From NCBI GenBank assembly GCA_017471245.1, contig JAFUVB010000061.1, forward strand, positions 1 through 64,000: a DNA stretch of 64,000 bases, written 5' to 3'. A model generated the notes under the pieces. It did no database searches, was not told where the DNA came from, and saw only the letters and a program-made list of their open reading frames with translations. The position numbers and the translations under genes were made by a program. Positions 1-16,558 of the stretch are shown in pieces. The DNA comes from Prevotella sp. GTDB lineage: Bacteria; Bacteroidota; Bacteroidia; Bacteroidales; Bacteroidaceae. Position 1 is the first letter of the stretch; every line of letters starts with the position of its first letter.

Positions 1-854
1 GCACCCACCTTCAGCCGCATCGTCATCTCCACGGGGAACCGCTTCTCATCGAACTTCCCCTGCACTGTTCCCTCATAGACGTATTCCTCCGCGTCAATCT
101 CTGCCAGACATTTCTCATTGATGCTGTCAGCCGTGCAGTTGCGCGAGGCCAGCGTGATCACCATCCCGTCAGCCTTCGTAGGCTGACAGACACGGCGGTT
201 CAGGTGCATCAAGTCCTCGGGCGTCACCTTGTTCAGCCTCACGTTCTCCAGTATCTGGAGGAAGTGCACGTCATCCTGGCGGTACACCTTCTGAAACTCT
301 ATCTTCACCAGTCGCATCCGCTTGATGACGTCTGCCTTGTAGAAGAAGCAGTCGTCCGCATGGTAGAGGTCCTGCATCAGTTCGCGCTCCTCCTTCCGTG
401 CCACCACTGGCGGCAACTGGAACATATCGCCCACGAAGATTACCTGCTTGCCACCGAAGGGCTGGGTGGAGCGCAGCGTCTTGCGCATGGTGTAGTCGAT
501 GGCATCGATGATGTCGCAGCGCACCATCGACACCTCGTCTATGATGATGGTGTCCGTGTGCAGCAGCGTCTGTATGCGTGCCTCGCTCATCTTGCCCATC
601 GTGCCGGGATAGCACACGTCCATTGGCAGTCCGAAGAACGAGTGGATGGTGTCGCCACCCGCCAGGATGGCCGCCACGCCCGTCGGTGCCAGCGTGATGA
701 ACTGCTTGTCCACCATCTGCTGCACCTTCCGCAAAAAGGTGGTCTTACCCGTTCCTGCCCTGCCGGTCAGGAAGAAACTGCTGTTCGTATTCGCAATCAG
801 CTCGTAGGCCAGCATCTGCTGCCTGTTCTCGGTATCTATCTGCATCTGTTCCAT
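1..854 (-). CDS. PIF1-like ATP-dependent DNA helicase, N-terminal part (runs off the window)
   Basis: The frame is open from an ATG at 854 to the window edge, so the C-terminal part is missing. About 285 residues are visible. They show the order expected of a PIF1/RecD-type superfamily 1 helicase: Walker A GRAGTGKTT near residue 30, Walker B IIIDEVSMV near residue 108, a GDMFQLPPV motif III near 145 and a YRQ motif near 190. Such proteins unwind DNA 5' to 3' and in Bacteroidota often sit in accessory regions. The start follows the upstream gene's stop by two bases, so it is the last visible gene of a three-gene leftward operon with two proteins of unknown function. That operon shares a palindromic upstream site with the CRISPR-cas operon. 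The helicase call is firm; the cellular role is open. Confidence 0.88.
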   Translation of the reverse strand, partial: MEQMQIDTENRQQMLAYELIANTNSSFFLTGRAGTGKTTFLRKVQQMVDKQFITLAPTGVAAILAGGDTIHSFFGLPMDVCYPGTMGKMSEARIQTLLHTDTIIIDEVSMVRCDIIDAIDYTMRKTLRSTQPFGGKQVIFVGDMFQLPPVVARKEERELMQDLYHADDCFFYKADVIKRMRLVKIEFQKVYRQDDVHFLQILENVRLNKVTPEDLMHLNRRVCQPTKADGMVITLASRNCTADSINEKCLAEIDAEEYVYEGTVQGKFDEKRFPVEMTMRLKVG

Positions 855-856
855 AG

Positions 857-1363
857 TTATCGCTGTTCTATTTGGGGAAGTATCTGCGTTAGCCGCGTGT
901 TGAAGTCCTGGTCAAGGAAGCTCTTGTAGCAACCATTGACGAGGGCCTTTGCCTGTTCCGTTGTCTGCTCTGCGGGCAGGCATACCCGCTGCATCTTCAT
1001 CACGCCCGTCAGGAAGTCCTTCACCATCTGTTCCGACTCTTGGCGGATGAACTCCTCGTTGCGAAACACCTTGTCGTAGTCACGCTTCTGAATGAGTTCC
1101 ATCCGCTGCCCGTTGAAAGCATAGAGTTCTATGCTGTCGATGTAGGTCCAGCTGTGGTAGAGGCCCACCTTCTCCACAATGACGATGCGGTCGCAGAAGC
1201 GGATACCGAGGTAGTATCGGTGTCCGTTGCCGCTTTCGTGCTCCTCGCAGATGAACATCTTCTGCCCCTCATCCCACACGGGGACGTGAACACGCGGGTT
1301 GCCGAAGGTCGGCAGAATGCTGTCAAACAGATTCTTGTTGATTGCTTTGGTCAGTGTTGCCAT
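857..1363 (-). CDS. Unknown protein, 168 aa, paralogue of the gene just upstream
   Basis: I do not recognise a named family. The protein is soluble, with no signal peptide or membrane segment. Its centre (about residues 50-125) aligns with the neighbouring 147-aa protein: IRFCDRIVIVEKVG against IRLSNRLVVYYDLG, then an ELYAFNG/KLFCFDG segment, then a helix ending MVKDFLTG against MLKNFLAG. The two are therefore tandem paralogues that have diverged well below half identity. It lies between that paralogue and the PIF1-like helicase, with 14 bp and 2 bp gaps, so the three genes are almost certainly co-transcribed. The C-terminal third is helical and charged. A role with the helicase is inferred from context only. 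Confidence 0.75.
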   Translation of the reverse strand: MATLTKAINKNLFDSILPTFGNPRVHVPVWDEGQKMFICEEHESGNGHRYYLGIRFCDRIVIVEKVGLYHSWTYIDSIELYAFNGQRMELIQKRDYDKVFRNEEFIRQESEQMVKDFLTGVMKMQRVCLPAEQTTEQAKALVNGCYKSFLDQDFNTRLTQILPQIEQR

Positions 1364-1377
1364 AGTCTTGTCGGTTT

Positions 1378-1821
1378 TTATGCCAGTTGCTTACGTTGTG
1401 TTTCCTCTATCATGCCCTGCGCGAAGCTGAGCATCTCCTGCTCCGAGACGTATGCCCCCTGTGCTTTCAACTGTCCGGCGAGGAAGTTCTTCAGCATCAG
1501 GACGCTCTGCTGCTTGGCGAACTGCTCGCTGAAGATGCGGTAGTCACAGCCGCCCCAATACCTCTGTGCGATGAGATTTGTCTTTGGCCCGTCGAAGCAG
1601 AACAGCTTGATGCCGTTCAGGAAGGTGTAGGCGTACCCCTGTCCCAGGTCGTAGTACACCACCAACCTGTTCGAGAGGCGTATCGCTTTGTAGTACATGT
1701 TCCCTGCTGCGCTGGTGTACCCCTGCGACAGGAATACGTTCTTTGCTGCGTTGTATGTCACTTGCTCGCCAGAGAGTGCCGGCAGAGCCTTGGTTGCGAT
1801 GATCTGAAGTGATGTGTTCAT
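1378..1821 (-). CDS. Unknown protein, 147 aa, first gene of the helicase operon
   Basis: This is the first gene downstream of a Bacteroidota-type promoter at 1897-1904. It is a cytosolic protein with no recognised domain. It contains the same beta-rich core followed by a helical tail seen in the adjacent 168-aa protein (shared pattern: IRxxxRxVxxxxxG, then LxxFxG, then a helix with MxKxFLxG). The C-terminus is rich in Glu and Gln. The start ATG at 1821 gives a leader of roughly 70 nt. Expression may be coupled to the CRISPR-cas operon, because both promoters carry the same 29-bp palindrome at the same distance. It could be a nucleic-acid-associated accessory protein, but nothing in the sequence shows that. 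Confidence 0.75.
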   Translation of the reverse strand: MNTSLQIIATKALPALSGEQVTYNAAKNVFLSQGYTSAAGNMYYKAIRLSNRLVVYYDLGQGYAYTFLNGIKLFCFDGPKTNLIAQRYWGGCDYRIFSEQFAKQQSVLMLKNFLAGQLKAQGAYVSEQEMLSFAQGMIEETQRKQLA

Positions 1822-1896
1822 TCTATTATTGATTTAAGTTCCCACCACTAAGCCTTTTCAGCATCAATCTCGCGATGGTTTCGATGATTGACGCTG

Positions 1897-1904
1897 CAAA
1901 GGTA
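1897..1904 (-). promoter_or_regulatory. -7 promoter element of the unknown/helicase operon
   Basis: On the minus strand this reads TACCTTTG, a perfect match to the Bacteroidota sigma-ABfr -7 consensus TAnnTTTG. It lies 76 bp before the first start codon (1821). A 29-bp palindrome begins 38 bp upstream of it. Confidence 0.7.
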
Positions 1905-1942
1905 AAAAGTTTCCAGGAACTATACAAGAAAACAAGGTTGTG

Positions 1943-1971
1943 AAACGGTTCCGTTCTATGAGGAACCGTTT
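1943..1971. promoter_or_regulatory. 29-bp palindrome, copy 1 (candidate operator)
   Basis: The arms AAACGGTTCC (1943-1952) and GGAACCGTTT (1962-1971) are perfect 10-bp inverted repeats around a 9-bp centre. A second copy of the same 10+9+10 design is at 12949-12977, upstream of the cas operon. In both cases exactly 38 bp separate the palindrome from the -7 box. No T-run follows it on either strand, so a terminator is unlikely. The position, centred about 60-65 bp upstream of the expected start of transcription, fits an activator site, but the binding protein is unknown. Confidence 0.7.
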
Positions 1972-2024
1972 GCCACCTTATTTATATAATACCTCGAAAG
2001 CACCACATACTCAAACAGCACCAT

Positions 2025-2427
2025 ATTTTAATCCTTGTTCTTATGGAATATGCTCACTGAGTGCATACCCAAAAGGAAATAGATATGGCTATTCAGTCTT
2101 AATCCTTGTTCTTATGGAATATGCTCACTGAGTTCATTTAATTTATTAACAATTTAAAACTTTTAAAAATTGTCTTAATCCTTGTTCTTAAGGAATATGC
2201 TCACTGAGCTTAGTAGTTGAGAACGCTATCTAAAGGCATTAGCACAGTCTTAATCCTTGTTCTTATGGAATATGCTCACTGAGAGGTCGCGTGATAACAT
2301 TCGCTAAGCGAAGTGTGTCTTAATCCTTGTTCTTATGGAATATGCTCACTGAGAGAACATTGGAACCATTCATGACTATGCCTGGCGGAGGTCTTAATCC
2401 TTGTTCTTATGGAATATGCTCACTGAG
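2025..2427 (-). CRISPR. CRISPR array, 6 repeats of 37 bp, 5 spacers
   Basis: Repeats start at 2025, 2096, 2172, 2247, 2317 and 2391; spacers are 34, 39, 38, 33 and 37 bp. In the plus direction the repeat begins GTCTTAATCCTTG and ends GCTCACTGAG. The copy at 2025 has two mismatches at its outer end and the copy at 2172 has one internal mismatch. Transcription is leftward: the degenerate terminal repeat marks 2025 as the old end, the leader with a TACCTTTG promoter lies at the cas2-proximal side, and on the minus strand the repeat ends in ATTAAGAC, which fits the 8-nt 5' handle of type III crRNAs. The array is short, so few past infections are recorded. Confidence 0.97.
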
Positions 2428-2534
2428 TCCAAAAAATGTAAATATCTCATTTTGAGGAATCTATAAGTTTACTCATACTACCTGATACTCAAAAATATCA
2501 AAAAAATGCTCATCTTTTTGAACGTGCAAAGGTA
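2428..2534 (-). promoter_or_regulatory. CRISPR leader with promoter
   Basis: This AT-rich 107-bp stretch separates the newest repeat (2391-2427) from a minus-strand TACCTTTG -7 box at 2527-2534. Transcription would start about 90 bp before the first repeat and run through the array. The leader has no open reading frame. The palindrome found at the two operon promoters is absent here, so the array promoter is probably controlled separately. Confidence 0.65.
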
Positions 2535-2578
2535 CAAATTTATTTCAATATGTCAAAGAGCGATTTAGTTAATCTTTT

Positions 2579-3055
2579 CTAAAAGAATAACGTATTTTTG
2601 CTTTGGGTTATGACATCAAGATTAATGTCTTGCCCGATGATTTTCATACTCGTAAGTATATCTGATGAGACAGGGCATACAATGATGCTGTCATGATTCT
2701 CGTAGAGCGACTGCACCTCTACCATGTCCCTTTTTATCCTCTCGTATTTCTCCATACTGAGATTGGCAAGGAAAATAGATTTCTGAATACGATAACACCC
2801 CATTCGCTCCAAATACTTTACTATGTTATATCTGACCTTGTTGCTTTCTATGTCGTACATTATGAAAAAAAGCATCTTACCTCCTTGTTTTGTTGTTTGA
2901 TGAATGAGTCCCAAAATGGCATCAATACGCTTTTGAAGAGTCGGCATATCATCTGCATTTACTGCAAGCCGATTAATAACTGGGGAATCTTCCAATCCTG
3001 AACGGTTCAGTTTCCTCAGTACTTCAAGATAATGCGATGCAGACTTCTTTTCCAT
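2579..3055 (-). CDS. cas2: CRISPR adaptation protein Cas2 with a 60-residue N-terminal extension
   Basis: Cas2 partners with Cas1 in the spacer-integration complex. The core starts at Met61 with MLFFIMYDIE, including the conserved Asp68 at the end of the first strand, and continues RYNIVKYLERMGCYRIQKSI, the ferredoxin-like fold of the family. Typical Cas2 is 85-100 aa; this one is 158 aa because of a helical, charged extension before Met61. The long start at 3055 is preferred because it follows the Prim-Pol stop by two bases, but an internal start at Met61 cannot be excluded. It is the last gene of the cas operon, before the leader. The extension may contact the neighbouring Prim-Pol or Cas1; that is inference. 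Confidence 0.92.
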   Translation of the reverse strand: MEKKSASHYLEVLRKLNRSGLEDSPVINRLAVNADDMPTLQKRIDAILGLIHQTTKQGGKMLFFIMYDIESNKVRYNIVKYLERMGCYRIQKSIFLANLSMEKYERIKRDMVEVQSLYENHDSIIVCPVSSDILTSMKIIGQDINLDVITQSKNTLFF

Positions 3056-3057
3056 CT

Positions 3058-4071
3058 CTATAGTTGATAAACAAACATCTGAATCAATTGGGCTGTCAAT
3101 TCATTTAGTTCTGCATTCGTACCACTTCTTGGCGATTTCACCACAGAGAACCCCCTCTTGCCAAAGAAGACGTTAATTTCTGCTAGTTTAATTCCCATGC
3201 TGATTCTTAGTTTCTTACCATACTGGATATCGATAATCTCCGTAACAATGAGACCGGTATCTTGAATATAAGTCACGAGATCATCGATAATCATATTCAA
3301 CTGTTCTGGCACAAATGCGTCTGGCTTTTTCCTAATGATCTTTGAGTTCGGGTGAAGGCATTGTTTGATTTTATCCATGATCTCCTTGTCAGGGTCAGAT
3401 GGTAAGTGTATAGTATCACCTGTCGGAAATTTCTTCTCTTCCCTCTTTTGTTTTGCCATCAAGTCGAACATCGCCAACGGATCAGATTGTTGCACATATA
3501 GCCCAATATCTACCGACTCGCAGTCATTATTAAAATAGGCTTCGCTGTCGAAACTTAAAAAGCATGCCCTTGTCACATCAGAAGTTCGTTTGTCGACCAC
3601 CTGTTCCAACTGATACTGCTCTGAAAACCTACGCAAGAATTCCTTATAAAACAGAGAGTAAAGTCCAGTATCATAGCATCGCTCGCGCAGTCGGAACATC
3701 ACCTTTACTCCGTCTTCACTCGGCGAAGTAAAGTACATCATGATTCTTTCGTCATCATGGATGCGAGACTTAACCGTGTCGATAGTAAGCCCTTTGTCGC
3801 TCAAGTGGTCAATGTCAACAACAAAGCATTCTGTATAGCCAAAGTTTTCAGTGTTCCGATAAGGGGGATTGAAAATGCCGCATACAACGTATGGAAGTGT
3901 ACGTTTCTGTTCGTTGTATTGCTTAGGAGATATCTGATAAGCAACACGAAGTTGTCTGATTTTAGCATCAACATAAGGTTCTGGATGAACAATACATTGG
4001 TAAAGTTCCAACTCCCGCATCTTCTTCAGCGGGTCATCTGCCGACTGGATATTAGTACCAAACATAATCAT
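3058..4071 (-). CDS. CRISPR-associated primase-polymerase (CAPP, VirE-N/BT4734-type Prim-Pol)
   Basis: The 337-aa protein has the archaeo-eukaryotic primase signature of VirE N-terminal-like Prim-Pols: the metal-binding pair in FVVDIDHL (Asp86, Asp88), the nucleotide-binding loop SPSEDGVKV (116-124) and the third motif DVTRACFLSFDSEA (Asp175). CRISPR-associated Prim-Pols are known to associate with Cas1 and Cas2 and to synthesise DNA or RNA, presumably to make or repair prespacers. The gene lies between cas1 and cas2, overlapping cas1 by 4 bp (ATGA), which implies translational coupling. Residues 230-337 form a second, helical domain I cannot name. The family assignment is from motifs; polymerase activity is not shown by the sequence. 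Confidence 0.85.
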   Translation of the reverse strand: MIMFGTNIQSADDPLKKMRELELYQCIVHPEPYVDAKIRQLRVAYQISPKQYNEQKRTLPYVVCGIFNPPYRNTENFGYTECFVVDIDHLSDKGLTIDTVKSRIHDDERIMMYFTSPSEDGVKVMFRLRERCYDTGLYSLFYKEFLRRFSEQYQLEQVVDKRTSDVTRACFLSFDSEAYFNNDCESVDIGLYVQQSDPLAMFDLMAKQKREEKKFPTGDTIHLPSDPDKEIMDKIKQCLHPNSKIIRKKPDAFVPEQLNMIIDDLVTYIQDTGLIVTEIIDIQYGKKLRISMGIKLAEINVFFGKRGFSVVKSPRSGTNAELNELTAQLIQMFVYQL

Positions 4072-5057
4072 TTTTCAAACCTTTTTAATTTTTGGGCTAA
4101 ATTCTGGATATACAAATTCATGTGAGTGAGCCTTGACCTGACGACTCCACCTTTTGAGATTGTCTCGTCAAGATAATCGTTAAACGACTGTATGAGTATC
4201 CGCCTTCCGAGCGGTTCGAGCCAGAAGGAGCCGTCCTCGCGAATAGAGTAGCATTCTTCGGTGATGCCGTTCTGGGTCAACAATGTGAAAACAACGTAAT
4301 CGACCCAAATCCGATAAAGTTCAATAACATCGTAGACCAAGACCGGACGGTTATAATCATCACGATGGAGGATACCGATGTACGGATCAATCCCTGCCTT
4401 GATAAGTGCCCCTTCTATCTTGCCATACAATATGCCATAGCCATAGTTCAGGAAGGCATTGGCCACATTCATGGCCGGATGCTGACTGCGTTGCTCAAAC
4501 TGGTATTCCTCAGGCAGGTACTTGACGATGGTACTGAAGTAAATGCGCGATGCCTGCCCTTCCCAGCCTCTCAGCGTCGGGGCCACATCACTCACCATCT
4601 CTCCCTCCAGTTTACAAACTTTCGAGCGAAAGCCCTCTATTCGTTCAATACTCCTTTTGCGCTCCCGCTCATGTAAAGTGTCACGTGGTTGAAGAAGCAA
4701 CATAAGAGCCTGCTGGTTCTCCATCTTCTGCATAATGACCTCCTTAATCCAATCAAGAGCAGCATGAGAGGCCGTGAAGTTGAGTTGGCCTTTGCGAATG
4801 GTGGATATAGAGCCATAACGAGGACTCCACACACGACCAATGGGATGTCCGCTCTTATCCATGAACATTACGTCAATTTCATGTTCTATAGCCAACATCA
4901 CAGCATCGCTTGTAATCTGTGCGCCACGACTGATTTGTATCGACTTAACATCATCCACGGGAATACGATGTCGCTCACCTTTCTTGGTGATGACAAAGGC
5001 CTCGTTGTCGCGGTTCAGCGATAAGCCAAAGGTGTTCAGTATCAACTCCATAGGCAC
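4068..5057 (-). CDS. cas1: CRISPR-associated endonuclease/integrase Cas1
   Basis: This 329-aa protein is the integrase of spacer acquisition. The N-terminal beta-domain (about 1-90) reads LNTFGLSLNRDNEAFVITKK. The helical catalytic domain has the Cas1 pattern: AFLNYGYGILYGKIEGAL with the metal-binding Glu, GIDPYIGILHRDD with the catalytic His, and VYDVIELYRIWVDY with the acidic residue of the third motif. Length is normal and all key residues are present. It is not fused to a reverse transcriptase, which many type III Cas1 proteins are. The gene follows the 118-aa protein by 17 bp and overlaps the Prim-Pol gene. Confidence 0.96.
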   Translation of the reverse strand: MPMELILNTFGLSLNRDNEAFVITKKGERHRIPVDDVKSIQISRGAQITSDAVMLAIEHEIDVMFMDKSGHPIGRVWSPRYGSISTIRKGQLNFTASHAALDWIKEVIMQKMENQQALMLLLQPRDTLHERERKRSIERIEGFRSKVCKLEGEMVSDVAPTLRGWEGQASRIYFSTIVKYLPEEYQFEQRSQHPAMNVANAFLNYGYGILYGKIEGALIKAGIDPYIGILHRDDYNRPVLVYDVIELYRIWVDYVVFTLLTQNGITEECYSIREDGSFWLEPLGRRILIQSFNDYLDETISKGGVVRSRLTHMNLYIQNLAQKLKRFEK

Positions 5058-5074
5058 AGAATATTATGGGTTAT

Positions 5075-5431
5075 TCAATACTCTCGAAACTTCACAAACT
5101 GGAATTCAGACACTTTTGTTCCATCAGCATTATAGGTAGTCTTCCGTTCTGTGGTAGAAGCTATGCACTTAATCCCCATCTCTTTAAGCTTAGTTACAAC
5201 CATAAAGGTAAATGTCATCTCACCCATGACGTGGACGGTGATGTCACGCACATCCCCCATCGCCACAATCTTTTGCACCCAATCTTGAGCAAGGGCTTGT
5301 AATTGGGTCTTGTCACTATTGGGAGCTACTGCAGGAAAGGAGAGGTCTACGATGTTCCCATAACAGAGGGAGGCCTCTCTCTGCTTGTTGTCCCAATGGC
5401 GAAACGGATGATTGCTGAAATTAACTAACAT
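5075..5431 (-). CDS. Small Rossmann-like type III accessory protein, candidate ring nuclease (Csx15/16/20-like)
   Basis: The protein has 118 aa and opens with a beta-strand and loop, LVNFSNHPFRHW. The rest alternates strands and helices (VHVMGEMTFTFMVVTKLKEM, then KCIASTTERKT, then SEFQFVKFREY), consistent with a single Rossmann-like domain. The NFSxHP start and its place between the CARF-HEPN RNase and cas1 recall the small Csx15/Csx16/Csx20 group, predicted or shown in some members to degrade cyclic oligoadenylate. I cannot identify catalytic residues. A small protein binding or removing the Cas10 second messenger would complete the signalling circuit here. The family assignment is tentative; the gene itself is well supported by tight operon spacing (8 and 17 bp). 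Confidence 0.7.
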   Translation of the reverse strand: MLVNFSNHPFRHWDNKQREASLCYGNIVDLSFPAVAPNSDKTQLQALAQDWVQKIVAMGDVRDITVHVMGEMTFTFMVVTKLKEMGIKCIASTTERKTTYNADGTKVSEFQFVKFREY

Positions 5432-5439
5432 GGCGTAAA

Positions 5440-6816
5440 CTATCTTATTAGTCGGATGATCTTCATGATAATCCTACCAAGTTTATCAATGTCTTCCGGG
5501 GTCAACATCCCTTCTGTACCTTGAATCATTGAAGCATGATTATACTTGTTTCTACAATTATTATGTATCCAAACAACATCCCATCGCATCAGTTTGATGA
5601 AGTCTTGAACAACAGGGGAGGAAACAGCAGTCTGCACTTTCTCTCTAATGCTTTCTAAACAGTCATCCTTCCAATCCTCTTCTCTATAGTTTCCCCAACG
5701 TAACAATGCATTAGATGCGGTACGTTCTTTATATACATGCTCGTCAGTTCCAAGCCGCAGACAGAAATCTGTAGTAATGTTTTCGTCAAGGATGGTGACG
5801 GCCTGCTGATACAGCTGGTGGTCATAACACCATTTCGCCGCTTCATATCCGTTGTGAAGGCTCTCTGGATACATAGTATCTGTTGACTCAAAGTTTTGGA
5901 GAGACTGCTGTATTTCTCCGATAATAGGTGGAATAGGTGCAATGACCTGATTTAATACTTCTGATACCTGCTCATGACAATCTCTAATCTGATTAATGCT
6001 AACACCACTTATGATGTTGGGTGATAGACACAGTTTCATGTCATTCAAGAAATTTTTCAACGATTCTATATAGGCATCCAGAAACCCTTCTGCTAACCTA
6101 CGGTCAATATTTTTTTTCCCCTTTTCTCGCAGCATTGGAATAAGAGCATCGTCTTCTTTCAGTTCTTGTAACTTCTTGATGTTTCCATTCTGAATGAGGT
6201 CAGCAGCAGCATATGTCCAGTCCTGAAGCATAGTCAGTGGGAGGATGTCCATCAGAGGAGCCTCATTGGATGCCGTATCGCGGGCTTCATAGTTGCCATA
6301 GGAAATATGCTTTACTTTTACTCCCTTAAGGAACTTGGCATAGTTGCTCAGCACCAACACCAGCATAGGTAAATAGCGGTAGCTATGAGTGAGATCGAAA
6401 TAAAGTTCGTCGTTGGGAAGGAGTGTACCATAAACGGCATTGAATATGGCCCACATTTCTTCCTCATTCTTTCCATCTGGAATATCAATGGTTTCTACAG
6501 GACAAGGAAGATTCATATCCTGCAGAACCTGCTCTAATCCCATATAGCTCTCTTCTTGTTCTGTCTTGTGGTTCAGTCTTTTAGAAATGTTCTTGTCCCA
6601 GTTTGCTCCCTTTGCACCATTTGTGAGCAAGATGATAATACGGTCAATGACTTCATCATCTGCATTTCGTGTTGTCCAGTTAGTGCTAACCTTCAGGTAC
6701 TCTAACGTTGCCTGCTGGATAAACCTGGTATTCGAAGAGACGAAACTTCCCTTGGTGTATTTGCAGGGTTCATAGAATCCTGTTCCAAGAACGGAAATAA
6801 AAATTTTTCTTGCCAT
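5440..6816 (-). CDS. CARF-HEPN ribonuclease of the Csx1/Csx2 (TM1812) family
   Basis: This 458-aa protein is the expected effector of cyclic-oligoadenylate signalling. The N-terminal CARF domain begins KIFISVLGTGFYEP and includes FDLTHSYRYLPMLVLVLSNY near residues 140-160, a hallmark of the TM1812/TIGR02221 family. The C-terminal HEPN domain has the catalytic RxxxxH as RNKYNH (Arg422, His427), six helices from the end. Binding of the cyclic nucleotide made by the Cas10 GGDD palm is expected to activate non-specific RNA cleavage in the cytoplasm. The gene starts two bases after csm5 ends and is followed by the candidate ring nuclease, so sensor, weapon and possible off-switch are adjacent. Confidence 0.9.
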   Translation of the reverse strand: MARKIFISVLGTGFYEPCKYTKGSFVSSNTRFIQQATLEYLKVSTNWTTRNADDEVIDRIIILLTNGAKGANWDKNISKRLNHKTEQEESYMGLEQVLQDMNLPCPVETIDIPDGKNEEEMWAIFNAVYGTLLPNDELYFDLTHSYRYLPMLVLVLSNYAKFLKGVKVKHISYGNYEARDTASNEAPLMDILPLTMLQDWTYAAADLIQNGNIKKLQELKEDDALIPMLREKGKKNIDRRLAEGFLDAYIESLKNFLNDMKLCLSPNIISGVSINQIRDCHEQVSEVLNQVIAPIPPIIGEIQQSLQNFESTDTMYPESLHNGYEAAKWCYDHQLYQQAVTILDENITTDFCLRLGTDEHVYKERTASNALLRWGNYREEDWKDDCLESIREKVQTAVSSPVVQDFIKLMRWDVVWIHNNCRNKYNHASMIQGTEGMLTPEDIDKLGRIIMKIIRLIR

Positions 6817-6818
6817 AA

Positions 6819-8525
6819 TTATGAGATTCCTAATTCTGTTCGTATTCGTTCTACGTTCTCTTTGCCAACAATCTTTTCCAAGTCTGAGAGCTTACTTTTT
6901 AGTTTTTTCTTCTCTCCTGCATTCAACTGTTGAGCTTCATTCATGAAAGCAGCTTGCTCTGATGACCCGTAAGAGTGTCCCTCAACTTTCAGCCATTTCA
7001 CAGTAGTTCCAACTAAATTGCCGGCAGAGGTCTTGCCCTTAATAACCTCAGACAGAGGCAGGCTGAACTTCTGTTGCGTTTCTTTCTGTGCCTGCAGATT
7101 GTACTCAGCAATGGATTTTGCTTTGAGACATTCTGCCTTCAACTGAGCGATTTCGCTATTTTCAGGATATAACGCTTCTGCTTTCTCCAAGTTTGCAATA
7201 GCCTCATCCCATCGCTCGGAATCTTTATCTTGCTTAGATTCAAGAATGAGCCGGTTGTATTCCTCAAACTTCTGCCTTTCCATTTCTTCAGCATGCCTAC
7301 GAGCTTGCTCTGCAGCAATTTTTTGTTGCTGTTCAGCCTCACGATGGTTAATGACATCCATCATCTGCTCTTGCTGATCATGGTGCTGTTTCTGAAGAAC
7401 CAACTCCCTTTCAGTCGCCTCTTCTTGACTCAAAGCACGAAGACGTACAAATCCCATCAGTTGCAGGCGATGGTTGTACTCTGCAATCTTTCTTGATTTA
7501 TACTTCTTCTTTCCTGCATGCCGTCCATCTGCCCATAACTTTGTCTTGTCATAGTCTTCATACTGCCAATCACCTGTAATGGAATGGAAACCAACACCTG
7601 CCGACATCTTCATCAGACAGCAGGAACCATCCGTAGGAATCATCGCCAAGAGTGCATCTATGTTGTCCAGCACCTCGTCAGAACGTTCTGCATTGTACTT
7701 CTCAAAGAAGGCACGCTCTTTCTCAAGGTATCCTCTCGTCACACCGTTGATAATCTGGAACAGATGGCTAATAGGCTCGTTAAGCAGCGCTTGCTTCTTA
7801 TTAGCGTAGGGTGTCTTTCCTTGTCCGAATTTCTCAAGTAAAGAGAATGCGTTAGTAGCCAAAGAGATATTGCCAAGTCCCTTCTTACCTGGAGCCACAC
7901 ACTCATAGAGCGTGTTAAAGCCTACGGGGTTGTAATGAGTATCCGTATGCGAATTGCCTTCTCTGTCTGTACCCCGATGCTTCCAGCCTCCCTGCCAGTC
8001 AGATCCATGCCCCCTAAGGTTAAATATCTTGGTATTGACCAATATGGTAGATGGCATCTCTATGTCGCCAACACGTATGAATCGCATCAAGTCTGTCCCA
8101 TTCTTCATTGTGCCAAACACTTCTTCGTTCTTCTGCTCGTCAGTGCGTAGATAGTTAAATAGTGCTGAGCGGATAGAACCTTTTATGGAACTGCCTGCTA
8201 CCAAGGGTTTGTCGTAAAACTGGGTCCGCAAAAACGTCTTGATGTTATTTTCAGTTTTTACAGGCAAGTCAAAGACATAGCGTGAGAACTTTTCTATGTT
8301 GTTGCCTAACAACTGACTGATGCCTCTATCGTCAGACTTCAGAAACAACTGTGTGAGCGCTTCCACATCCACATCGGCAACAGCGGCTTTCTGCATATCG
8401 ATGACATAAACCTTACCGTCTTTCTGTACGAAGTCAAGCCCCTTCACCCATTCGTTGTCGTTTCCGGCGCCAACGGAGAGAGGCGTAATAGCTTCTAACT
8501 CTATGGGATATTTCCTGTTTTCCAT
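6819..8525 (-). CDS. csm5: Csm5, RAMP subunit of the type III-A complex, with a coiled-coil/TPR-like C-terminal extension
   Basis: Csm5 caps the Csm complex at the 3' end of the crRNA and recruits maturation nucleases. The RAMP core (about 1-365) opens with YPIELEAITPLSVGAGND and contains the glycine-rich VAGSSIKGSIRSALFNYL. Typical Csm5 is about 350-400 aa; this protein is 568 aa. The extra 200 residues contain a strongly charged coiled coil rich in Glu, Gln and Arg (about 368-430), a TPR-like pair of helices (SERWDEAIANLEKAEALYPE, about 440-460) and a basic Lys/Leu-rich end. A partner-binding role for this tail is inference. The gene starts 1 bp after csm4. Confidence 0.9.
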   Translation of the reverse strand: MENRKYPIELEAITPLSVGAGNDNEWVKGLDFVQKDGKVYVIDMQKAAVADVDVEALTQLFLKSDDRGISQLLGNNIEKFSRYVFDLPVKTENNIKTFLRTQFYDKPLVAGSSIKGSIRSALFNYLRTDEQKNEEVFGTMKNGTDLMRFIRVGDIEMPSTILVNTKIFNLRGHGSDWQGGWKHRGTDREGNSHTDTHYNPVGFNTLYECVAPGKKGLGNISLATNAFSLLEKFGQGKTPYANKKQALLNEPISHLFQIINGVTRGYLEKERAFFEKYNAERSDEVLDNIDALLAMIPTDGSCCLMKMSAGVGFHSITGDWQYEDYDKTKLWADGRHAGKKKYKSRKIAEYNHRLQLMGFVRLRALSQEEATERELVLQKQHHDQQEQMMDVINHREAEQQQKIAAEQARRHAEEMERQKFEEYNRLILESKQDKDSERWDEAIANLEKAEALYPENSEIAQLKAECLKAKSIAEYNLQAQKETQQKFSLPLSEVIKGKTSAGNLVGTTVKWLKVEGHSYGSSEQAAFMNEAQQLNAGEKKKLKSKLSDLEKIVGKENVERIRTELGIS

Positions 8526-8526
8526 A

Positions 8527-9546
8527 TCATTTTATTATTATAGGTAACATTATGGCTCTCCCATTTCGCCAAACAGGATGAGAAATCTCCACATCATCCG
8601 TCTTTGGCTTCAAGTCAACAATCTTGCCAACAACGGTAGTCGCCTGGCCTTCTTCCTTATGGAATACTGATCCTGGCAGGAATCCGTAGATGGCATTCTT
8701 GCGCAGGGTCATATAAGGATAAGTAGTAATCCAGCCACCTCGGCGTACAAAGTCGTAAGCAACACGTTCAGAGTTCATCAGTTTTACTAACTGTTCCTTC
8801 GACTCTGGTATGAAAAGAGAAAGCGACAATTGATGATTAGCAGCATCAGGCAAATCTATCGAAAGAGTATCTGCTGTATATTCGAAGAAACCATATCCCA
8901 CATTCCTGTCGGTTCCGATGCCCTCCATAGAAAGCAGTTGCAGTGCTTTCTCTAATAGCGCGGTATCTCCTTCTGCAATGAAATAGAGGCCTGCATGATG
9001 ACGGAAGAGTATCTTGTCAACATAAAAAGGCTTGGCATCCTCTTCGCCTGTACGGCTTTTCAGAGTTACACGTTGTGACACTTCAGAGTTGATAAACTCT
9101 TTATTGCCATTGATATCTTCAGGCAATTCAAATGTTGTCAGATAACTTTCCTGGATATTCGAGACATACTTGTCTGTCCTGTCAAACAGAGATTCGCCAG
9201 ACAAGATTGATGAGTAGAGAGCACTATCAACCCATTGTACCTTCTTCACCTTTTTTGCCTTAGAGACATCAGCAAGTTCTGCCAGTCTGGCTTGCATTGG
9301 GATTGGAAGAAAGTACACGGGAGTACTGTCCTTATCTTTTTGAAAATAGGGAAACAGACTACTCACCGTAAACCCAAGGTTTCCATCATCTGGCAACTTT
9401 TCTCCCTGCTTTGCCAAGCCTGACATGAGAGCGGCATAAAGCGTGTCAGACTGAATAATCTTCTGACTGTTGCCCAAGTCCTCATGCAGGTCGCTAATGT
9501 GCAGTGGGGCCGTGAAGTGCAACTTATAGATTTTGAATGTTGCCAT
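8527..9546 (-). CDS. csm4: Csm4, RAMP subunit binding the crRNA 5' handle
   Basis: Csm4 (Cas5-like) binds the 5' repeat-derived handle of the crRNA and docks to Cas10. The protein has 339 aa. It opens with KIYKLHFTAPLHISDLHEDL and the helix SDTLYAALMSGLAKQGEKL, followed by SSLFPYF, as in Csm4 of Bacteroidota. A glycine-rich RAMP loop, GTDRNVGYGFFEY, lies near residue 205, and FLPGSVFHKEEG is near the C-terminus. The first half matches well and length is usual. It sits between csm3 (11 bp gap) and csm5, in the standard gene order. Confidence 0.92.
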   Translation of the reverse strand: MATFKIYKLHFTAPLHISDLHEDLGNSQKIIQSDTLYAALMSGLAKQGEKLPDDGNLGFTVSSLFPYFQKDKDSTPVYFLPIPMQARLAELADVSKAKKVKKVQWVDSALYSSILSGESLFDRTDKYVSNIQESYLTTFELPEDINGNKEFINSEVSQRVTLKSRTGEEDAKPFYVDKILFRHHAGLYFIAEGDTALLEKALQLLSMEGIGTDRNVGYGFFEYTADTLSIDLPDAANHQLSLSLFIPESKEQLVKLMNSERVAYDFVRRGGWITTYPYMTLRKNAIYGFLPGSVFHKEEGQATTVVGKIVDLKPKTDDVEISHPVWRNGRAIMLPIIIK

Positions 9547-9557
9547 AATCGCCTACT

Positions 9558-10211
9558 TTATGCTGTCCAGTTATTCGCATCAGAGAGTTCAGTTCTTTTC
9601 ATCTCTCCGAACTTGATTTGACCATAGCCGCGAGAGCCACTACCACCAAGATAGTCGTTTTCAAGCAAACGGATACCTTTCTCAAACAATGCCATCAGTT
9701 CCTGCTCGTTATCATCGTCCCAGACATTGATAATGAACTCTGCATTGAATTCTGCACCGGCAGGCACACGCTCGGTCTGACGGGGATGCTGAGCAATACC
9801 TTTAACGCGGTCTATGACATTCTCAAACTTGTTTTCTGTATACGGCATGTCCAAGTTGTCGCAATCCAAAAGTATCTTCTTGGAGTCGTCGCTCAGCATG
9901 GCGTCTCTGACAATAATCTTTGAGGGTTGATTACTGGTATTATTAGCCCTACTTTCTGTGATACCGAACAGATTATTAACCTTCTCATCAAGTCCGACCT
10001 TAGGGGCGCCAGCCGCTTGTTCCAATAAGCAACGCATCTTGCCCTTTAAGGAACTTCCAGGAATATAGGGGACATCACCCTTTGAAGCCAATTTGACAAC
10101 CGGATTGTCGATGCCGCCAATCTCTACATTCTCACTGTTACCTCCGATGTGAAGTCCTGTAATGAGGGTGATGGAGGTGTTTATCTTGATTTTCTTTACT
10201 AACTGTTTCAT
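9558..10211 (-). CDS. csm3: Csm3, backbone RAMP and target-RNA endonuclease
   Basis: Csm3 forms the repeating backbone of the complex and cuts bound target RNA every six nucleotides. The 217-aa protein shows the RAMP start TLITGLHIGGNSENVEIGG and the loop GGIDNPVV, whose Asp35 corresponds to the catalytic aspartate of characterised Csm3 proteins. It also has GSSLKGKMRCLLEQAAGA and the C-terminal glycine-rich GGSGSRGYGQIKFGE. Everything needed for target cleavage is present, so RNA interference could work even if Cas10 signalling is lost. The gene is 21 bp after csm2. Confidence 0.95.
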   Translation of the reverse strand: MKQLVKKIKINTSITLITGLHIGGNSENVEIGGIDNPVVKLASKGDVPYIPGSSLKGKMRCLLEQAAGAPKVGLDEKVNNLFGITESRANNTSNQPSKIIVRDAMLSDDSKKILLDCDNLDMPYTENKFENVIDRVKGIAQHPRQTERVPAGAEFNAEFIINVWDDDNEQELMALFEKGIRLLENDYLGGSGSRGYGQIKFGEMKRTELSDANNWTA

Positions 10212-10232
10212 TGTCTTACTTTGTTTAGGTTG

Positions 10233-10649
10233 TTATTTCTTTTCAGCTGCTTTGTGATAAGCTACGATAGCCTCGAAGGCGGTGATGAAGTTTTTGAAAG
10301 CTTTTTGCTTGTCTGAGCTACTTTGAACTTGGTCTATAGCATCTGCTAAAACTTCGTAGAAATCCTCTATCTTATATGTTTTAAATTTGCTGCCATTCTG
10401 TCTGGCACGTCCAACTGCATAAGCCAACTTTGGCTTGAGCATCACGAACTCTGTATCATTATAGCCAATCATCTGCTGGCGTTTAACCTCGCCGAAAAAC
10501 TTACGAAGTTGACTAGTGGATAGCGGTTCTGCATTATCCTCTCTTTCGGCAAGATAATCTCCAAATTCTTTTGCGAAACGCACCGTAACGTCTGTAACTT
10601 TGTTTTGAATTTCCTCTTTAGGAATTCGATCATTCTTTTTCCAACTCAT
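10233..10649 (-). CDS. csm2: Csm2, small alpha-helical subunit
   Basis: Csm2 (Cas11-like) forms the inner filament of the Csm complex and contacts the crRNA-target duplex. The 138-aa protein is helical and basic. It has the family features: an N-terminal helix containing FAKEFGDYLAE, the motif LSTSQLRKFFGEVKRQQ, the segment LKPKLAYAVGRARQNG, and a C-terminal helix that includes KAFKNFITAFEAIVAYHKAA. Length is normal for the family. It lies between cas10 (14 bp) and csm3 (21 bp), in the canonical type III-A order. Confidence 0.93.
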   Translation of the reverse strand: MSWKKNDRIPKEEIQNKVTDVTVRFAKEFGDYLAEREDNAEPLSTSQLRKFFGEVKRQQMIGYNDTEFVMLKPKLAYAVGRARQNGSKFKTYKIEDFYEVLADAIDQVQSSSDKQKAFKNFITAFEAIVAYHKAAEKK

Positions 10650-10663
10650 AGTTATTATGTTAT

Positions 10664-12137
10664 TTAGTTATTTATATCATCTTTTAAGACCAACTCTGCC
10701 CAACGGGCTGCGAGGGCAATCAGTTCCAGTTTCCGCCCATTGCGATAGTCTATCTCCCGATCTCTTAAAGAACGGCAAAAGTCACAGACGGCTCGATTTG
10801 ATTCATAGCGTTTCATGAAGCGCGTCAAGTAATAGCTGATGTGCCATATATAGCTAAAATCTTCCTGCTTGCCTTCTTTACGACGAATCTTGTTGCGGTC
10901 GGCTATCGAGGAATAAAGCATCAACTTATGCAAGATGCCTTTACTGAGGTCGTACTGTTTTATAAGGGTGACAAACTGTTGCTTGATACTCTTTACATAA
11001 TCAAATTCTTGATTCCAAGAGATGGTCTTACCCAGCATACAAAAAGCATTTTTCTCGCCATTACGGAATTGCTTTGCAGCATCCTCAGCATCGCCTGCCA
11101 GTTCGGCAGCCTTTGAAATTGGGAACTTCGGCTGTACCACAGCGATGCCACCAGAGATGCTGATGCCCTCGCTTCCGAAATGGTTCTCTGTCTCTTGATG
11201 GATGCGCTCTGCAAAATCTATCACTTTATCCCAGCGTCCTACCACAAACAGATCGTCGCCTCCAGCATAGATAATGTTTAGATAGGGTTTGAATTCTGTC
11301 TCTTGTTGTATTTTCCGAGTTTTCTCTTCAAAGAAATCAACCAATTTCTTTGAGAAAGCTTTGTATTGGCTGATGCTGTCGAAACCTGTGATGAAGCGTT
11401 TGCCCAATCCATCAATGTCCATACGAAGTATACCCAGATTAGTATCTCCAGCATATTCCTCAAAGGTTTTAAAACCCTCTTGCACACGAAGTTCTTCACC
11501 TAATTGAATCTGTTGGCGAACCGAGGGCAGAACGTACATTTCTTCATCTTTACCTTCTGCAGATATCATGACACAATCAGGCGACTCAATACCTGTTACA
11601 GCGCATACCTTAGGCTTTCCTCCAACTGGAATGGGTTCAAAGAACTCCTGATAACTGTCTGTCAGTATATCCTTAAACTTCTGACTTTTCTGATGGGCGA
11701 ATTCTGCATTTGCCATTTTCCAGAGATAACCAGGCTTTTGTCCAATAGCATCCTGACAATCTACTGTGCCATCAGGATTCTCATTGAAAGCCACATGACT
11801 GATGTTCACACCTAACTGTCCCTTGTGTTCAACCCAAAGATTTTGCTTCGCTTGTTTGGCACACGTCTCGACAGCTTGCACAATTTGGGGAGTATTATCC
11901 GTCAAGAGATAGAATTTACCACCAGAGTTGTAGATAATCTCTACAGTTTTGGCTCCATTGACTTCAGCGGCCTGCTTGATGTCCGTACAGATATTCTCCA
12001 TCAACTGACGAAGATAGTAAGAACGTCCTTTCAGGCTGACAGCTGCCTTCTTTGACGAAATGTTATAAAAGGAACTTCTGAATACCAGACAAGTCCCCTC
12101 CCACAAATAGTTGTTTGAATACTTTACTTTGTTCCAT
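10664..12137 (-). CDS. cas10: Cas10/Csm1, HD-less, interrupted by a one-base frameshift
   Basis: Cas10 is the signature subunit; its palm domains make cyclic oligoadenylate when target RNA binds. The GGDD active site (IIYAGGDDLFVVG) is at 11252-11263. The true start is the ATG at 12137: this frame reads MEQSKVFKQLFVGGDLSGIQKFL and then hits a TAA at 12063-12065. The homologous continuation YNISSKKAAVSLKGRSYYL is in another frame from 12067. Removing one base from the TTTT run (12067-12070, minus strand) joins the two into the normal Palm1 start. Without it, only a TTG at 12106 could start the long 480-codon frame. No N-terminal HD nuclease domain exists, since cas6 ends only 6 bp upstream. 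Gene identity is firm; whether the frameshift is real or a sequencing error is open. Confidence 0.9.
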
Positions 12138-12143
12138 TCGTGG

Positions 12144-12842
12144 TTATTGATTAGAATTATTGTTGTTATCTTTATGCAATTGGTGCACTATTCCACAGCC
12201 TATGCTGGCATTCTTGCCGATTCCTATGTTATTAGGAATAGACAAGTTACATTTGAAATCAGTATTAAAGGCCATCATCTTTACACCTTTATTATATAAC
12301 AGGTAAGGCTCACTGACTTCTGTAATCTTAAGAATAATTTCCTTATCCAAATGGATATTCAGCCCCTTCAACATAGAGAGCAGATTGCCTTTAAGGACGT
12401 TCTCAAGGAAGGATACTCTTTCCACTGCACCATCCAGATTCTGGTATAGCTGATAATTCTTCGAGTTGAGTGGCAACCATCTACTAATATGATAAGAGAA
12501 CGTATCCTCCCATGTTTGTACAAGGATTCTGGCAGGTTTTATCTTATTGGTATTGTATGCAATCTGGCGATTGCCAATATTCAGTGTTCCATTAGCCTCA
12601 GTCAAAAACTGTCCGATTTTATCTACACCATCTTCAATGCAGACTATAGCAGCCTTCCCACCTAATCTCTTATATTGAATTAGTGGATAGGCGTATCTGA
12701 ACTTATCGTTATCCAGATGATTGTGATAATACAGGTTAGGGTGTTCCCCAAGACTGTTAATGACAGCACCCCTGAATAGAGGAACTTCATGTTGATGAAT
12801 CTCCGCATCGGTTAATATGGTTAGTGTTCTTATGTATTTCAT
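12144..12842 (-). CDS. cas6: Cas6-type CRISPR repeat endoribonuclease
   Basis: This first gene of the cas operon encodes 232 aa with a ferredoxin-like start (MKYIRTLTILTDAEIHQHEV) and, near the end, the glycine-rich loop NIGIGKNASIGCGIVHQL typical of Cas6-family RNases. Cas6 cuts the pre-crRNA within each repeat, leaving the 8-nt handle. His residues at 18, 34, 40 and 42 are candidates for catalysis, but I cannot assign the active site. It lies about 60 bp downstream of a TACCTTTG promoter. Distance from classical Cas6 is considerable, so the call rests on the glycine loop, size and position. Confidence 0.82.
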   Translation of the reverse strand: MKYIRTLTILTDAEIHQHEVPLFRGAVINSLGEHPNLYYHNHLDNDKFRYAYPLIQYKRLGGKAAIVCIEDGVDKIGQFLTEANGTLNIGNRQIAYNTNKIKPARILVQTWEDTFSYHISRWLPLNSKNYQLYQNLDGAVERVSFLENVLKGNLLSMLKGLNIHLDKEIILKITEVSEPYLLYNKGVKMMAFNTDFKCNLSIPNNIGIGKNASIGCGIVHQLHKDNNNNSNQ

Positions 12843-12902
12843 TTGTTCTGTTTTAGGTTTAAAGCATATTACATATTCCGTTATTACACATTAAATGCGT
12901 TG

Positions 12903-12910
12903 CAAAGGTA
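12903..12910 (-). promoter_or_regulatory. -7 promoter element of the cas operon
   Basis: On the minus strand this reads TACCTTTG, a perfect TAnnTTTG. It lies 60 bp upstream of the cas6 ATG. The 29-bp palindrome at 12949-12977 begins 38 bp upstream. No other promoter is obvious within the operon, so cas6 through cas2 are probably one transcript. Confidence 0.75.
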
Positions 12911-12948
12911 CAACCGATTTTTGATTACAGCAAGCATTTGAGACTCAT

Positions 12949-12977
12949 AAATGGTTCCGTTCTCGATGGAACTGTTT
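12949..12977. promoter_or_regulatory. 29-bp palindrome, copy 2 (candidate operator of the cas operon)
   Basis: This copy reads AAATGGTTCC, a 9-bp centre, then GGAACTGTTT. It matches the copy at 1943-1971 at about 22-24 of 29 positions, including the GGTTCCGTTCT core and the right GGAAC. Its own arms match at 8 of 10 positions. It lies 38 bp upstream of the cas -7 box. The adjacent WYL-domain regulator (14031-15134) is a candidate ligand-responsive binder, by analogy with WYL regulators of other defence systems. Confidence 0.68.
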
Positions 12978-12990
12978 TGGTACGCGTCCT

Positions 12991-13389
12991 TCATCTTTCC
13001 GAATCAGAAAGGTTGCTGATAAAGAACTGGATAGCTTGCTTCAATTGAGATAGTTCATTTCTTAGAATCCAGTGAATCTGACTGGCATCAACATCGAAAT
13101 AATGATGAGCGATGATGTCTCGTAATCCTTTGACTTGCTTCCAAGGAATCGAGGGATAGGTGGGCAGCAACTTTCCTCCAGTCTGTTTATCCAAACTCTT
13201 AAGACTCTCGCCAATAGCAATAAGAAGCATACAAACAGAATCAAGCAGCACCATACCTTGAGATGACGAAAGGAAATCATCCGCGGAGCGAATATTGTGT
13301 GTCCGCTCCTCAATTCTCTCGATGGCAGAAAGGATATCTTCAAGGATATCCAGTGCCAGAGACTTGCTTTCAGAAGATAGTGACTCCAT
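12991..13389 (-). CDS. hepT: HepT-like HEPN toxin
   Basis: HepT is the RNase toxin of the HepT-MntA toxin-antitoxin family. The 132-aa, all-helical protein carries the HEPN motif RX4HXY as RDIIAHHY (Arg90, His95, Tyr97), followed by FDVDASQIHWIL, a typical DUF86 end. The partner nucleotidyltransferase gene lies directly upstream and overlaps by 20 bp. In characterised pairs the antitoxin silences HepT by AMPylating the tyrosine of this motif, which is intact here. The gene ends just before the palindrome upstream of the cas operon and may be regarded as part of the same defence island. Confidence 0.9.
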   Translation of the reverse strand: MESLSSESKSLALDILEDILSAIERIEERTHNIRSADDFLSSSQGMVLLDSVCMLLIAIGESLKSLDKQTGGKLLPTYPSIPWKQVKGLRDIIAHHYFDVDASQIHWILRNELSQLKQAIQFFISNLSDSER

Positions 13390-13663
13390 CGCGTTCTATC
13401 CTGCGACGCAGGCGGGGATTAAGGCTTGAATGATTACGGATGATGTCAACGGAACGACCAACGCGCTGCTCCAAATACTCCTTGGCTTCCATCAGAAGGA
13501 AAGGATTTGGAGTCTCCGTATCTACGAATACATCCACATCACTCCCCTCGTGATCTTCACCACGAGCCATCGAACCAAACAGGCGGAGCGACTTGATGCC
13601 GTAGTCGCTCTTTAGTGTGCTTCTACAGCCCCGCAAGATACCTATGCAATCAGTCTTACTCAT
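13370..13663 (-). CDS. mntA: MntA-like nucleotidyltransferase antitoxin
   Basis: This 97-aa protein is a minimal nucleotidyltransferase. The signature GSX10DXD is complete: LRLFGSMARGEDHEGSDVDVFVD with Gly30-Ser31 and Asp42/Asp44. The C-terminus contains LEQRVGRSVDIIRNHSSLNP, including the third acidic position common to the family. It is expected to transfer AMP to the HepT toxin. It is translated first and overlaps hepT by 20 bp, the usual order of such pairs. A minus-strand TAAATTTG promoter lies 22 bp upstream. Confidence 0.9.
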   Translation of the reverse strand: MSKTDCIGILRGCRSTLKSDYGIKSLRLFGSMARGEDHEGSDVDVFVDTETPNPFLLMEAKEYLEQRVGRSVDIIRNHSSLNPRLRRRIERDGVTIF

Positions 13664-13685
13664 ACTTCATCATTTATTTCTGTCG

Positions 13686-13693
13686 CAAATTTA
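13686..13693 (-). promoter_or_regulatory. -7 promoter element of mntA-hepT
   Basis: On the minus strand this reads TAAATTTG, matching TAnnTTTG, 22 bp before the mntA start codon. The region upstream to 13882 holds no gene. Confidence 0.55.
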
Positions 13694-13882
13694 GGGGATT
13701 TTTGCGACAAAACCAAATAATTGAAGTAGAAAGTTGTCTTTTTAATTGCTATTGTGATAGTTCGCCCGTTGAACAGCCTCAATTAGCACAAAAAACAGTG
13801 ACTATACATACTGATCTGCCAACTACTTGGGAACACTTCGGAAATGGTTTGAATGGTTAGAACGATAATAAGTATCGACCAT

Positions 13883-13905: not shown

Positions 13906-13932
13906 TATCGCCATACGCTGATATCAACGTAA

Positions 13933-14040
13933 CTATTTCACCAGTTTCAATCCCTTTTCCGATAGGTAGTATCGTTGGTGGGGCTTGTCGGGATAGGTAC
14001 GCAGAACATAACCACTTCTATCTTGAAAGTTTACTTTTTC
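13933..14040 (-). pseudogene. C-terminal fragment of a gene (35 codons, no start)
   Basis: On the minus strand, from 14040 to the TAG at 13933-13935, the frame reads EKVNFQDRSGYVLRTYPDKP and then HQRYYLSEKGLKLVK. This looks like a real protein end, of the kind that closes winged-helix proteins (…RYYLSEKG). It has no start codon and is preceded by two in-frame stops inside the end of the WYL gene, which it overlaps by 10 bp in another frame. It is probably what is left of an older gene that the WYL gene replaced. The parent family cannot be named with confidence. Confidence 0.4.
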
Positions 14041-16553: not shown

Positions 16554-16558
16554 AAAAC

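Follow-up and report, generated by a model that had tools for sequence, protein, structure and literature searches.

A palindrome at a fixed distance from the -7 box marks Bacteroidales defence islands and is a putative operator of their WYL protein

The window considered here (the whole stretch of 64,000 nucleotides, positions 1 to 64,000 of contig JAFUVB010000061.1 in the Prevotella sp. assembly GCA_017471245.1) carries near its start a set of minus-strand genes in which two palindromes of one layout each stand ahead of a promoter. In the 5' to 3' direction these are a gene for a WYL-domain protein (wyl), an MNT-HepT-like pair, a palindrome with its promoter, a type III-A CRISPR operon, the CRISPR array, a second palindrome with its promoter, and an operon of two genes here called unkA and unkB and a helicase gene (Table 1). 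The cas operon has the order cas6b-cas10-csm2-csm3-csm4-csm5-csx1-csx20-cas1-PrimPol-cas2, and Cas10/Csm1, Csm2-Csm5 and Cas6 are encoded together, as expected of type III-A. Compared with known type III-A systems the cas genes look ordinary by family, and the novelty lies in their regulation and in the island that holds them. At the thresholds applied, Pfam, NCBIfam, PADLOC and PHROGs contain no family that matches unkA or unkB.

The original prediction for this DNA was that one palindrome stands 38 bp upstream of the -7 box of each of two operons that flank the CRISPR array. Recomputed positions, boxes and gaps agree with it in every case; the pair does not enclose the array alone but brackets the whole cas operon plus the array. 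Both palindromes have a 10+9+10 layout; read directly, the copy before unkA is perfect, and the copy before cas6b matches in eight of ten arm pairs. The minus-strand TACCTTTG box is exact at both promoters, with a gap of 38 bp in both. The upstream regions are otherwise unrelated, as had been claimed: identity is 29/100 in the 100 bp beyond the palindromes and 13/38 in the spacers, except for a CTTG at the same spot in both spacers, which is a -33-like element. The core, given earlier as GGTTCC-N17-GGAAC, is actually GGTTCC-N9-GGAAC, and a pattern with N10-20 finds nothing in the window. With up to three mismatches, the 16-base core finds the two copies plus one three-mismatch site in the window, where shuffles expect 0.55, and the composite of palindrome and box with at most one mismatch occurs in the 3.73-Mb genome at no other place than these two promoters. 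The array's own TACCTTTG box has no palindrome in the corresponding slot, nor do the TAnnTTTG boxes near mnt and near wyl; these three boxes are putative promoters. The palindrome loop looks somewhat like the CRISPR repeat (GTTCT...GGAA), but the likeness need not be invoked, as palindromes also precede cargo other than CRISPR.

The fixed spacing between palindrome and box is not due to chance. When the gap was left free between 23 and 53 bp in 396 genomes of the same genus, 41 exact matches of palindrome plus box were found in 24 genomes, and 40 of the 41 have a gap of 38 bp; the remaining match, at 39 bp, comes from reading a palindrome from behind, and this palindrome has a 38-bp box as well. 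A reversed control pattern gave one match in the 396 genomes. Lack of conserved spacing in relatives had been named in advance as grounds for abandoning the idea, and these counts speak for conservation. The strict count (exact composite in 24 of 396 genomes) is preferred to the count with up to one mismatch (58 of 398 genomes), many of which are single hits that lack the extended palindrome or the exact box and look like chance. Sites chosen without reference to the box give the same distance. In 15 loci chosen via the WYL protein or the core, together with the first 20 kb of the window, TAnnTTTG stands exactly 38 bp from all 25 palindromes that depart from the core by one mismatch or none, and from one of ten with two mismatches; the background is 5.3e-4 per position. 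Of 30 palindrome-core sites picked without the box from 150 same-genus genomes, 17 are followed by TAnnTTTG after precisely 38 bp, and for the other 13 it is absent from the 110 bp downstream. Throughout, the counts are of related sequences, and many of the genomes are metagenome-assembled genomes (MAGs) with contig ends inside the island.

The spacers themselves vary. For 117 sites, they form 28 single-linkage clusters at 60% identity, and the distance is therefore kept where the sequence is not. Cluster sizes are uneven (66, 11 and 8, then 25 clusters of 1 to 3), and the largest mixes cas-type and unkA-type promoters. The 117-site set holds only sites with TAnnTTTG or CAnnTTTG at 38 bp, and one of them (L134, minus strand, 6915) is the reverse reading of another; alone the set is uninformative on the spacing because it was selected for that distance. 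A TTG at spacer position 15, again a -33-like element, is present in 83 of the 117 sites and in 16 of the 28 cluster representatives.

A scan of 84,980 species with the 20-base composite found 92 exact sites in 69 stretches, where our own estimate expects about 0.5 sites (257 billion bases, both strands, equal base use). Of the 69 stretches, 67 are labelled Bacteroidales, under the names Prevotella, Prevotellaceae, Bacteroidaceae, Bacteroides, Parabacteroides, Muribaculaceae, Paludibacteraceae, Porphyromonadaceae, Leyella and unnamed Bacteroidales; one is from an uncultured bacterium and one from a MAG labelled Bacillota (JAMPFD010000001.1, L155), which is probably mislabelled. Palindromes in these stretches that do not match the exact composite have TAnnTTTG at 38 bp in 18 of 20 cases with at most one mismatch and in none of 16 with two. 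The idea of a phage decoy was rejected: the single viral match (L177, to an 18-base version) has no hit to island proteins and looks like chance.

The sites are restricted to islands of a recognizable kind. A hidden Markov model search of the 69 loci, which measure 8 kb in 60 cases, found in 57 a gene for the WYL protein (41), for unkA or unkB (33), or for a 142-amino acid protein described below (13), and nine of the other 12 have the helicase, cas genes or cargo relatives. The last three (L119, L127 and L130) have none of these, save for two weak cargo matches in L127; elsewhere in the genomes of L119 and L127, on separate contigs, there are close WYL genes. Neither a WYL nor an unkA hit was found in 15 control loci of at most 3 kb with core-like sites lacking the box, compared with 12 of 17 loci of the same size that have it. 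The original prediction would have failed had the palindrome been common genome-wide without relation to promoters, and the survey found otherwise.

By gene content, the palindrome marks a predicted defence island made up of a WYL regulator, exchangeable cargo, and then unkA, unkB and a PIF1-like helicase. The WYL gene is on one side and unkA-unkB-helicase on the other; the content between them varies from island to island, and operons in this position carry their own copies of palindrome, 38-bp spacer and box. The unknown/helicase operon had been proposed to be a CRISPR-linked module, but it is instead the invariant end of an island in which the cargo is frequently something other than CRISPR. 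Since unkB is present in only 14 of 150 same-genus genomes, the helicase operon is a part of the island and not a core locus. A second unkB copy (G000:C53:52-555, 86% identical) stands where a different contig of that genome begins, either in a second island or from a mixed assembly.

Type III-A CRISPR is the cargo in the window and in three further genomes (G269, G358 and G245). Three of 20 cas6 homologues examined have the palindrome, and all three have a second palindrome near the far end of the same island. Cas13b is the cargo in L076 (exact site), L164 (one mismatch) and L077 (two mismatches). In L164, from Prevotella pectinovora P4-76, the Cas13b gene (2333-5605, minus strand) is behind a palindrome-38-box promoter with the palindrome near 5699, and the WYL gene adjoins; the protein and PspCas13b of 8wf8 can be aligned along all 1090 residues and differ little in the portion displayed. 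Other cargo includes large ATPases with weak STAND-like matches, and a two-gene cargo (L063, L064, L066 and L067) that pairs a protein of 880-1000 amino acids carrying a GHKL ATPase domain with a partner of about 380-420 amino acids. The larger protein is also methylase-like in two of the four scanned, the partner has no family above cut-off, and the pair is a candidate for an undescribed defence system. In L063, L067 and L064, genes like AbiE, AbiL and PDC-S02 separate the WYL gene from the first palindrome. The smallest form of the island, seen in L132, L135 (Bacteroides rodentium) and L145 (Leyella stercorea, with a STAND-like gene before WYL), is WYL, palindrome, a protein of the 142-amino acid type, palindrome, unkA, unkB and helicase. 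This basic protein of 120-150 amino acids, with its own palindrome promoter between WYL and unkA (L135:6911-7327, minus strand; L145, L132 and others), has no family above cut-off. Kinship of unkA and unkB with the 142-amino acid protein was considered and ruled out by hhalign.

Table 1. Features at the island in the window, from the WYL gene to the contig start.
Feature	Position	Strand	Remark
WYL-WCX protein, proposed regulator of the palindromes	14031..15134	-	predicted binding
hepT-like and MNT-like genes, toxin-antitoxin-like cargo between wyl and the cas palindrome	12991..13663	-	
Palindrome (putative operator) upstream of the cas operon	12949..12977	-	8/10 arm pairs
-7 box TACCTTTG, cas operon promoter	12903..12910	-	38 bp from palindrome
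Start of the cas operon leader	12853..12902	-	small hairpin weakly kept here, -4.2 kcal/mol
cas6b, first gene of the cas operon	12144..12842	-	
cas10/csm1	10664..12106	-	
csm2, csm3, csm4, csm5	6819..10649	-	
csx1 (CARF-HEPN), csx20	5075..6816	-	
cas1, PrimPol-like gene, cas2	2579..5057	-	
CRISPR array, six repeats	2025..2427	-	strand inferred, transcription probably from the minus strand; TACCTTTG box of its own at 2527-2534
Perfect palindrome (putative operator) upstream of the unkA-unkB-helicase operon	1943..1971	-	
-7 box TACCTTTG, unkA promoter	1897..1904	-	38 bp from palindrome
RNA leader hairpin directly after the unkA -7 box	1859..1896	-	
unkA, 147 aa	1378..1821	-	no known family
unkB, 168 aa, distant unkA paralogue	857..1363	-	no known family
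PIF1/RecD-like helicase	3..854	-	cut by contig start; family called on the full-length homologue L064:4967-7030

Many of the transcripts that would start at these promoters have a conserved, covarying structure at the 5' end. At unkA-type promoters, the transcript sequence immediately following the -7 box folds into a hairpin whose loop resembles ACCACC, both in the window and in leaders from L063 to L173. In 42 unkA-type leaders, chosen from the 117 for likeness to this type, 98.1% of cells pair and six of 11 pairs change on both sides; none of 500 shuffles reaches six pairs, and slid controls reach at most two. Among the 53 unkA-type leaders with at least seven of nine pairs, G-U outnumbers A-C by 26 to 6. 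The cas-type promoters have a smaller hairpin (G-U 14, A-C 0 in 20 leaders), which is weak in the window's copy. Not all leaders fold: 77 of the 117 do so at -7 kcal/mol or better. There is no Rfam match at gathering scores in window positions 1-20000.

The regulator most clearly associated with the palindrome is the WYL protein. Pfam WYL and WCX match 30 of 30 aligned members at E up to 1; for the window protein WYL is above cut-off (28.8 versus 21.8 bits) and WCX just below (23.1 versus 23.9). Two weak matches in the PDB (E 0.03), 7p5x and 9fnd, are named transcriptional regulator-like protein, and we take both to be PafBC structures. The WYL proteins are in two groups, 60-79% and 37-43% identical to that of the window. 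Loose direct repeats of the type CTATGCTTTTG are present upstream of the WYL gene region, at window positions 15830-15990. In the first 150 same-genus genomes (G000-G149), unkB is found in 10 of 10 genomes with the exact composite versus four of 140 others (Fisher 9e-13) and a close WYL protein (E at most 1e-60) in seven of 10 versus five of 140 (Fisher 3e-7), both values being for the exact composite only. The four genomes with unkB and without the exact composite are G072 and G081, which have one-mismatch palindromes, G024, which stops inside unkB, and G033; those with WYL and without the exact composite are G135 and G031 (both with WYL at a contig end), G059 (a two-mismatch palindrome), G072 and G033. 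In G033 (C20; L069 and L186), the III-A genes, unkA and unkB are present, the WYL gene is split between two frames, and no palindrome is found before cas6 or unkA. The operator also follows the WYL clade. A WYL hit is present in the locus of 81 of the 117 sites. Of these 81, the 44 beside clade-1 WYL end the loop with C in 35 cases, and the 37 beside clade-2 WYL end it with A in 35; arm position 4 is T in all 37 clade-2 sites and C in 28 of the 44 clade-1 sites. Despite the confounding by shared ancestry discussed below, co-occurrence and the clade-following variants suggest that the WYL protein is the binder.

On this comparison of DNA sequences, the island's WYL protein probably uses the palindrome as its operator and activates transcription from a position upstream of the promoter. 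The proposal made originally, of one shared regulator, probably an activator and probably the WYL protein, best fits the 40 of 41 sites at one distance, the co-occurrence of the site with WYL and with the unkA-unkB-helicase operon, and the clade variants; the missing palindromes in G033, where WYL is frameshifted, also speak for it. A WYL dimer would bind the palindrome always on one face of the helix, centred about 52 bp upstream of the -7 box; with a transcription start a few bases past the box, the centre would be at roughly -60 to -65. The zone given for type I activators is -41 to -81 (PMC12340889), and the palindrome's position falls inside it. An upstream site that is exact to the base argues for an activator that contacts the polymerase, so that the bound WYL protein may help RNA polymerase at Bacteroidales promoters of the TTG...TAnnTTTG type. 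The defence operons between wyl and unkA, plus the unkA-unkB-helicase operon, would then be jointly controlled by one local regulator, whose WYL domain presumably senses a nucleic-acid signal of infection or damage.

Several observations weigh against this reading. BrxR and CapW, the WYL regulators of defence systems considered here, are repressors. No Pfam helix-turn-helix is among the families listed for the 30 WYL members, and the DNA-binding domain of the window's WYL protein is unrecognised by Pfam. The window's wyl gene has no palindrome at its own putative box. Three of the genomes with the exact composite have no close WYL, namely G036 and G066, with sites near contig ends, and G096, with a divergent WYL only. 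Spacing has exceptions: the two near-match palindromes without TAnnTTTG at 38 bp are in L161, which has CACCTTTG (CAnnTTTG) at 38 bp, and L124, which has TAACTTTG at 39 bp, and G358 has TACTTTTA before cas6. G245 has the island palindrome before unkA and none before cas6. The frameshift in G033 could be an assembly error, and co-occurrence, clade-following and joint loss are all confounded by shared ancestry.

The same operator and the same WYL protein could instead serve repression, with the bound dimer blocking or looping the promoters until it is released on infection. BrxR and CapW repress defence genes in this way, the second BrxR site is described as upstream of the repressed promoter (PMC9122601, PMC9122588), and some of the cargo may be toxic and need silencing. 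However, the site stands upstream of both the -7 box, by 38 bp, and the -33-like TTG, by about 15 bp, where it should leave the core promoter uncovered, and simple occlusion needs no such fixed distance as that of the 40 of 41 base-exact sites; repression is unlikely. That the site belongs to a different regulator, of the island or the host, is less likely again. Although unkB co-occurs with the motif even more tightly than WYL does, WYL is the only recognisable regulator repeatedly seen in the islands, the operator follows its clade, and G033 keeps the unkA, unkB and helicase side while its palindromes are lost together with an intact WYL.

A role mainly in recombination, with cassettes swapped at the palindrome and the promoter carried along, has a slim chance as the principal explanation and may hold alongside the activator reading. 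In the largest promoter cluster, identity stays at 0.27-0.33 as far as the palindrome and rises to 0.88 over the first ten bases of it. Among 98 sites with an upstream gene end in range, the gene stops in 76 within the stretch that runs from 60 bp ahead of the palindrome to its position 16, and at 16 of the 98 the stop codon of the preceding cargo gene is inside the palindrome loop at exactly position 16. Cargo also differs between otherwise similar islands. The identity jump and the gene ends fit cargo exchange at palindromes, but exchange needs neither a base-exact distance to the -7 box across 28 spacer clusters nor a link to WYL clade, and no recombinase gene was noticed beside the sites, in work that included no search aimed at recombinases. 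The palindrome is often directly after an upstream gene, as an intrinsic terminator or an RNA hairpin ending the upstream operon would be, but neither window copy is followed by a T-run and a terminator needs no fixed distance to the next promoter. On the transcribed strand, arm variants in 1170 cells (117 sites) are A-C in 82, G-U in 20 and other mismatches in 72; as A-C far exceeds G-U, a sense RNA stem is not kept, and the terminator or hairpin reading was rejected on this asymmetry as highly improbable.

Regulators resembling the one proposed are known. BrxR is a WYL repressor of BREX and defence islands with a first site between promoter and gene and a second described upstream of a promoter (PMC9122601), and CapW is a homodimeric WYL repressor of CBASS with palindromes that overlap the -10 (PMC9122588). 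Like BrxR, the present system has a WYL protein beside defence genes and two inverted-repeat sites per island, with binding here predicted; unlike BrxR, a repressor with the sites just given, it has one site exactly 38 bp above the -7 box of each operon. Like CapW, it has a WYL protein with a palindrome in a defence promoter; unlike CapW, which is described for single CBASS operons, its site is clear of the core promoter. Linkage to phage-defence genes is shared with both, and the palindrome neither overlaps the core promoter, as with CapW, nor is between promoter and gene, as with the first BrxR site, a distinction that the second BrxR site makes less than absolute. RptR, not described as a WYL protein, is similarly a dedicated defence-island regulator with a conserved site; it differs as a repressor, of a restriction-modification defence island, with 6-bp palindromes that overlap the -10 (PMC12255303).

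WYL activators are also known, including DriD, PafBC and SiwR, with single-stranded DNA activating DriD and PafBC (PMC12340889, PMC11804915, PMC10693628). DriD binds over the -35, SiwR has a palindrome that reaches from -10 to -35, and PafBC acts by sigma adaptation (PMC12340889, PMC11804915, PMC10693628). The targets of these three are DNA-damage genes, whereas here they are exchangeable defence cargo, and the palindrome is not at or over the -35 as with DriD and SiwR; some 15 bp lie between its end and the TTG. Given its fixed position, the operator suggests a WYL activator acting from upstream, unlike DriD, SiwR and PafBC as described. A search by title and start of abstract, without bioRxiv preprints and most subscription papers, found no report of a WYL regulon in Bacteroidales defence loci or of a palindrome shared among them, and none on the regulation of the native locus of a near-PspCas13b.

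A more speculative extension, possible but short of even odds, is that the island is a plug-in locus in which the palindrome, the 38 bp and the promoter form a socket. Cassettes would be swapped at palindromes, newcomers would come under the control of the resident WYL activator at once, and the whole set would be induced by a nucleic-acid signal of infection, including III-A or Cas13b together with the constant unkA-unkB-PIF1 and its structured RNA leader. The GHKL-ATPase pairs, unkA, unkB and the 120-150 amino acid protein have no described function in the libraries scanned, and the composite offers a search key in which genes behind it are candidate defence genes. In gut-type Bacteroidales, the same site fronts two kinds of RNA-targeting CRISPR, type III-A and Cas13b, and the palindrome with its promoter would be a single control element, open to test, in many defence loci of Bacteroidales, among them the one that natively encodes a near-PspCas13b.

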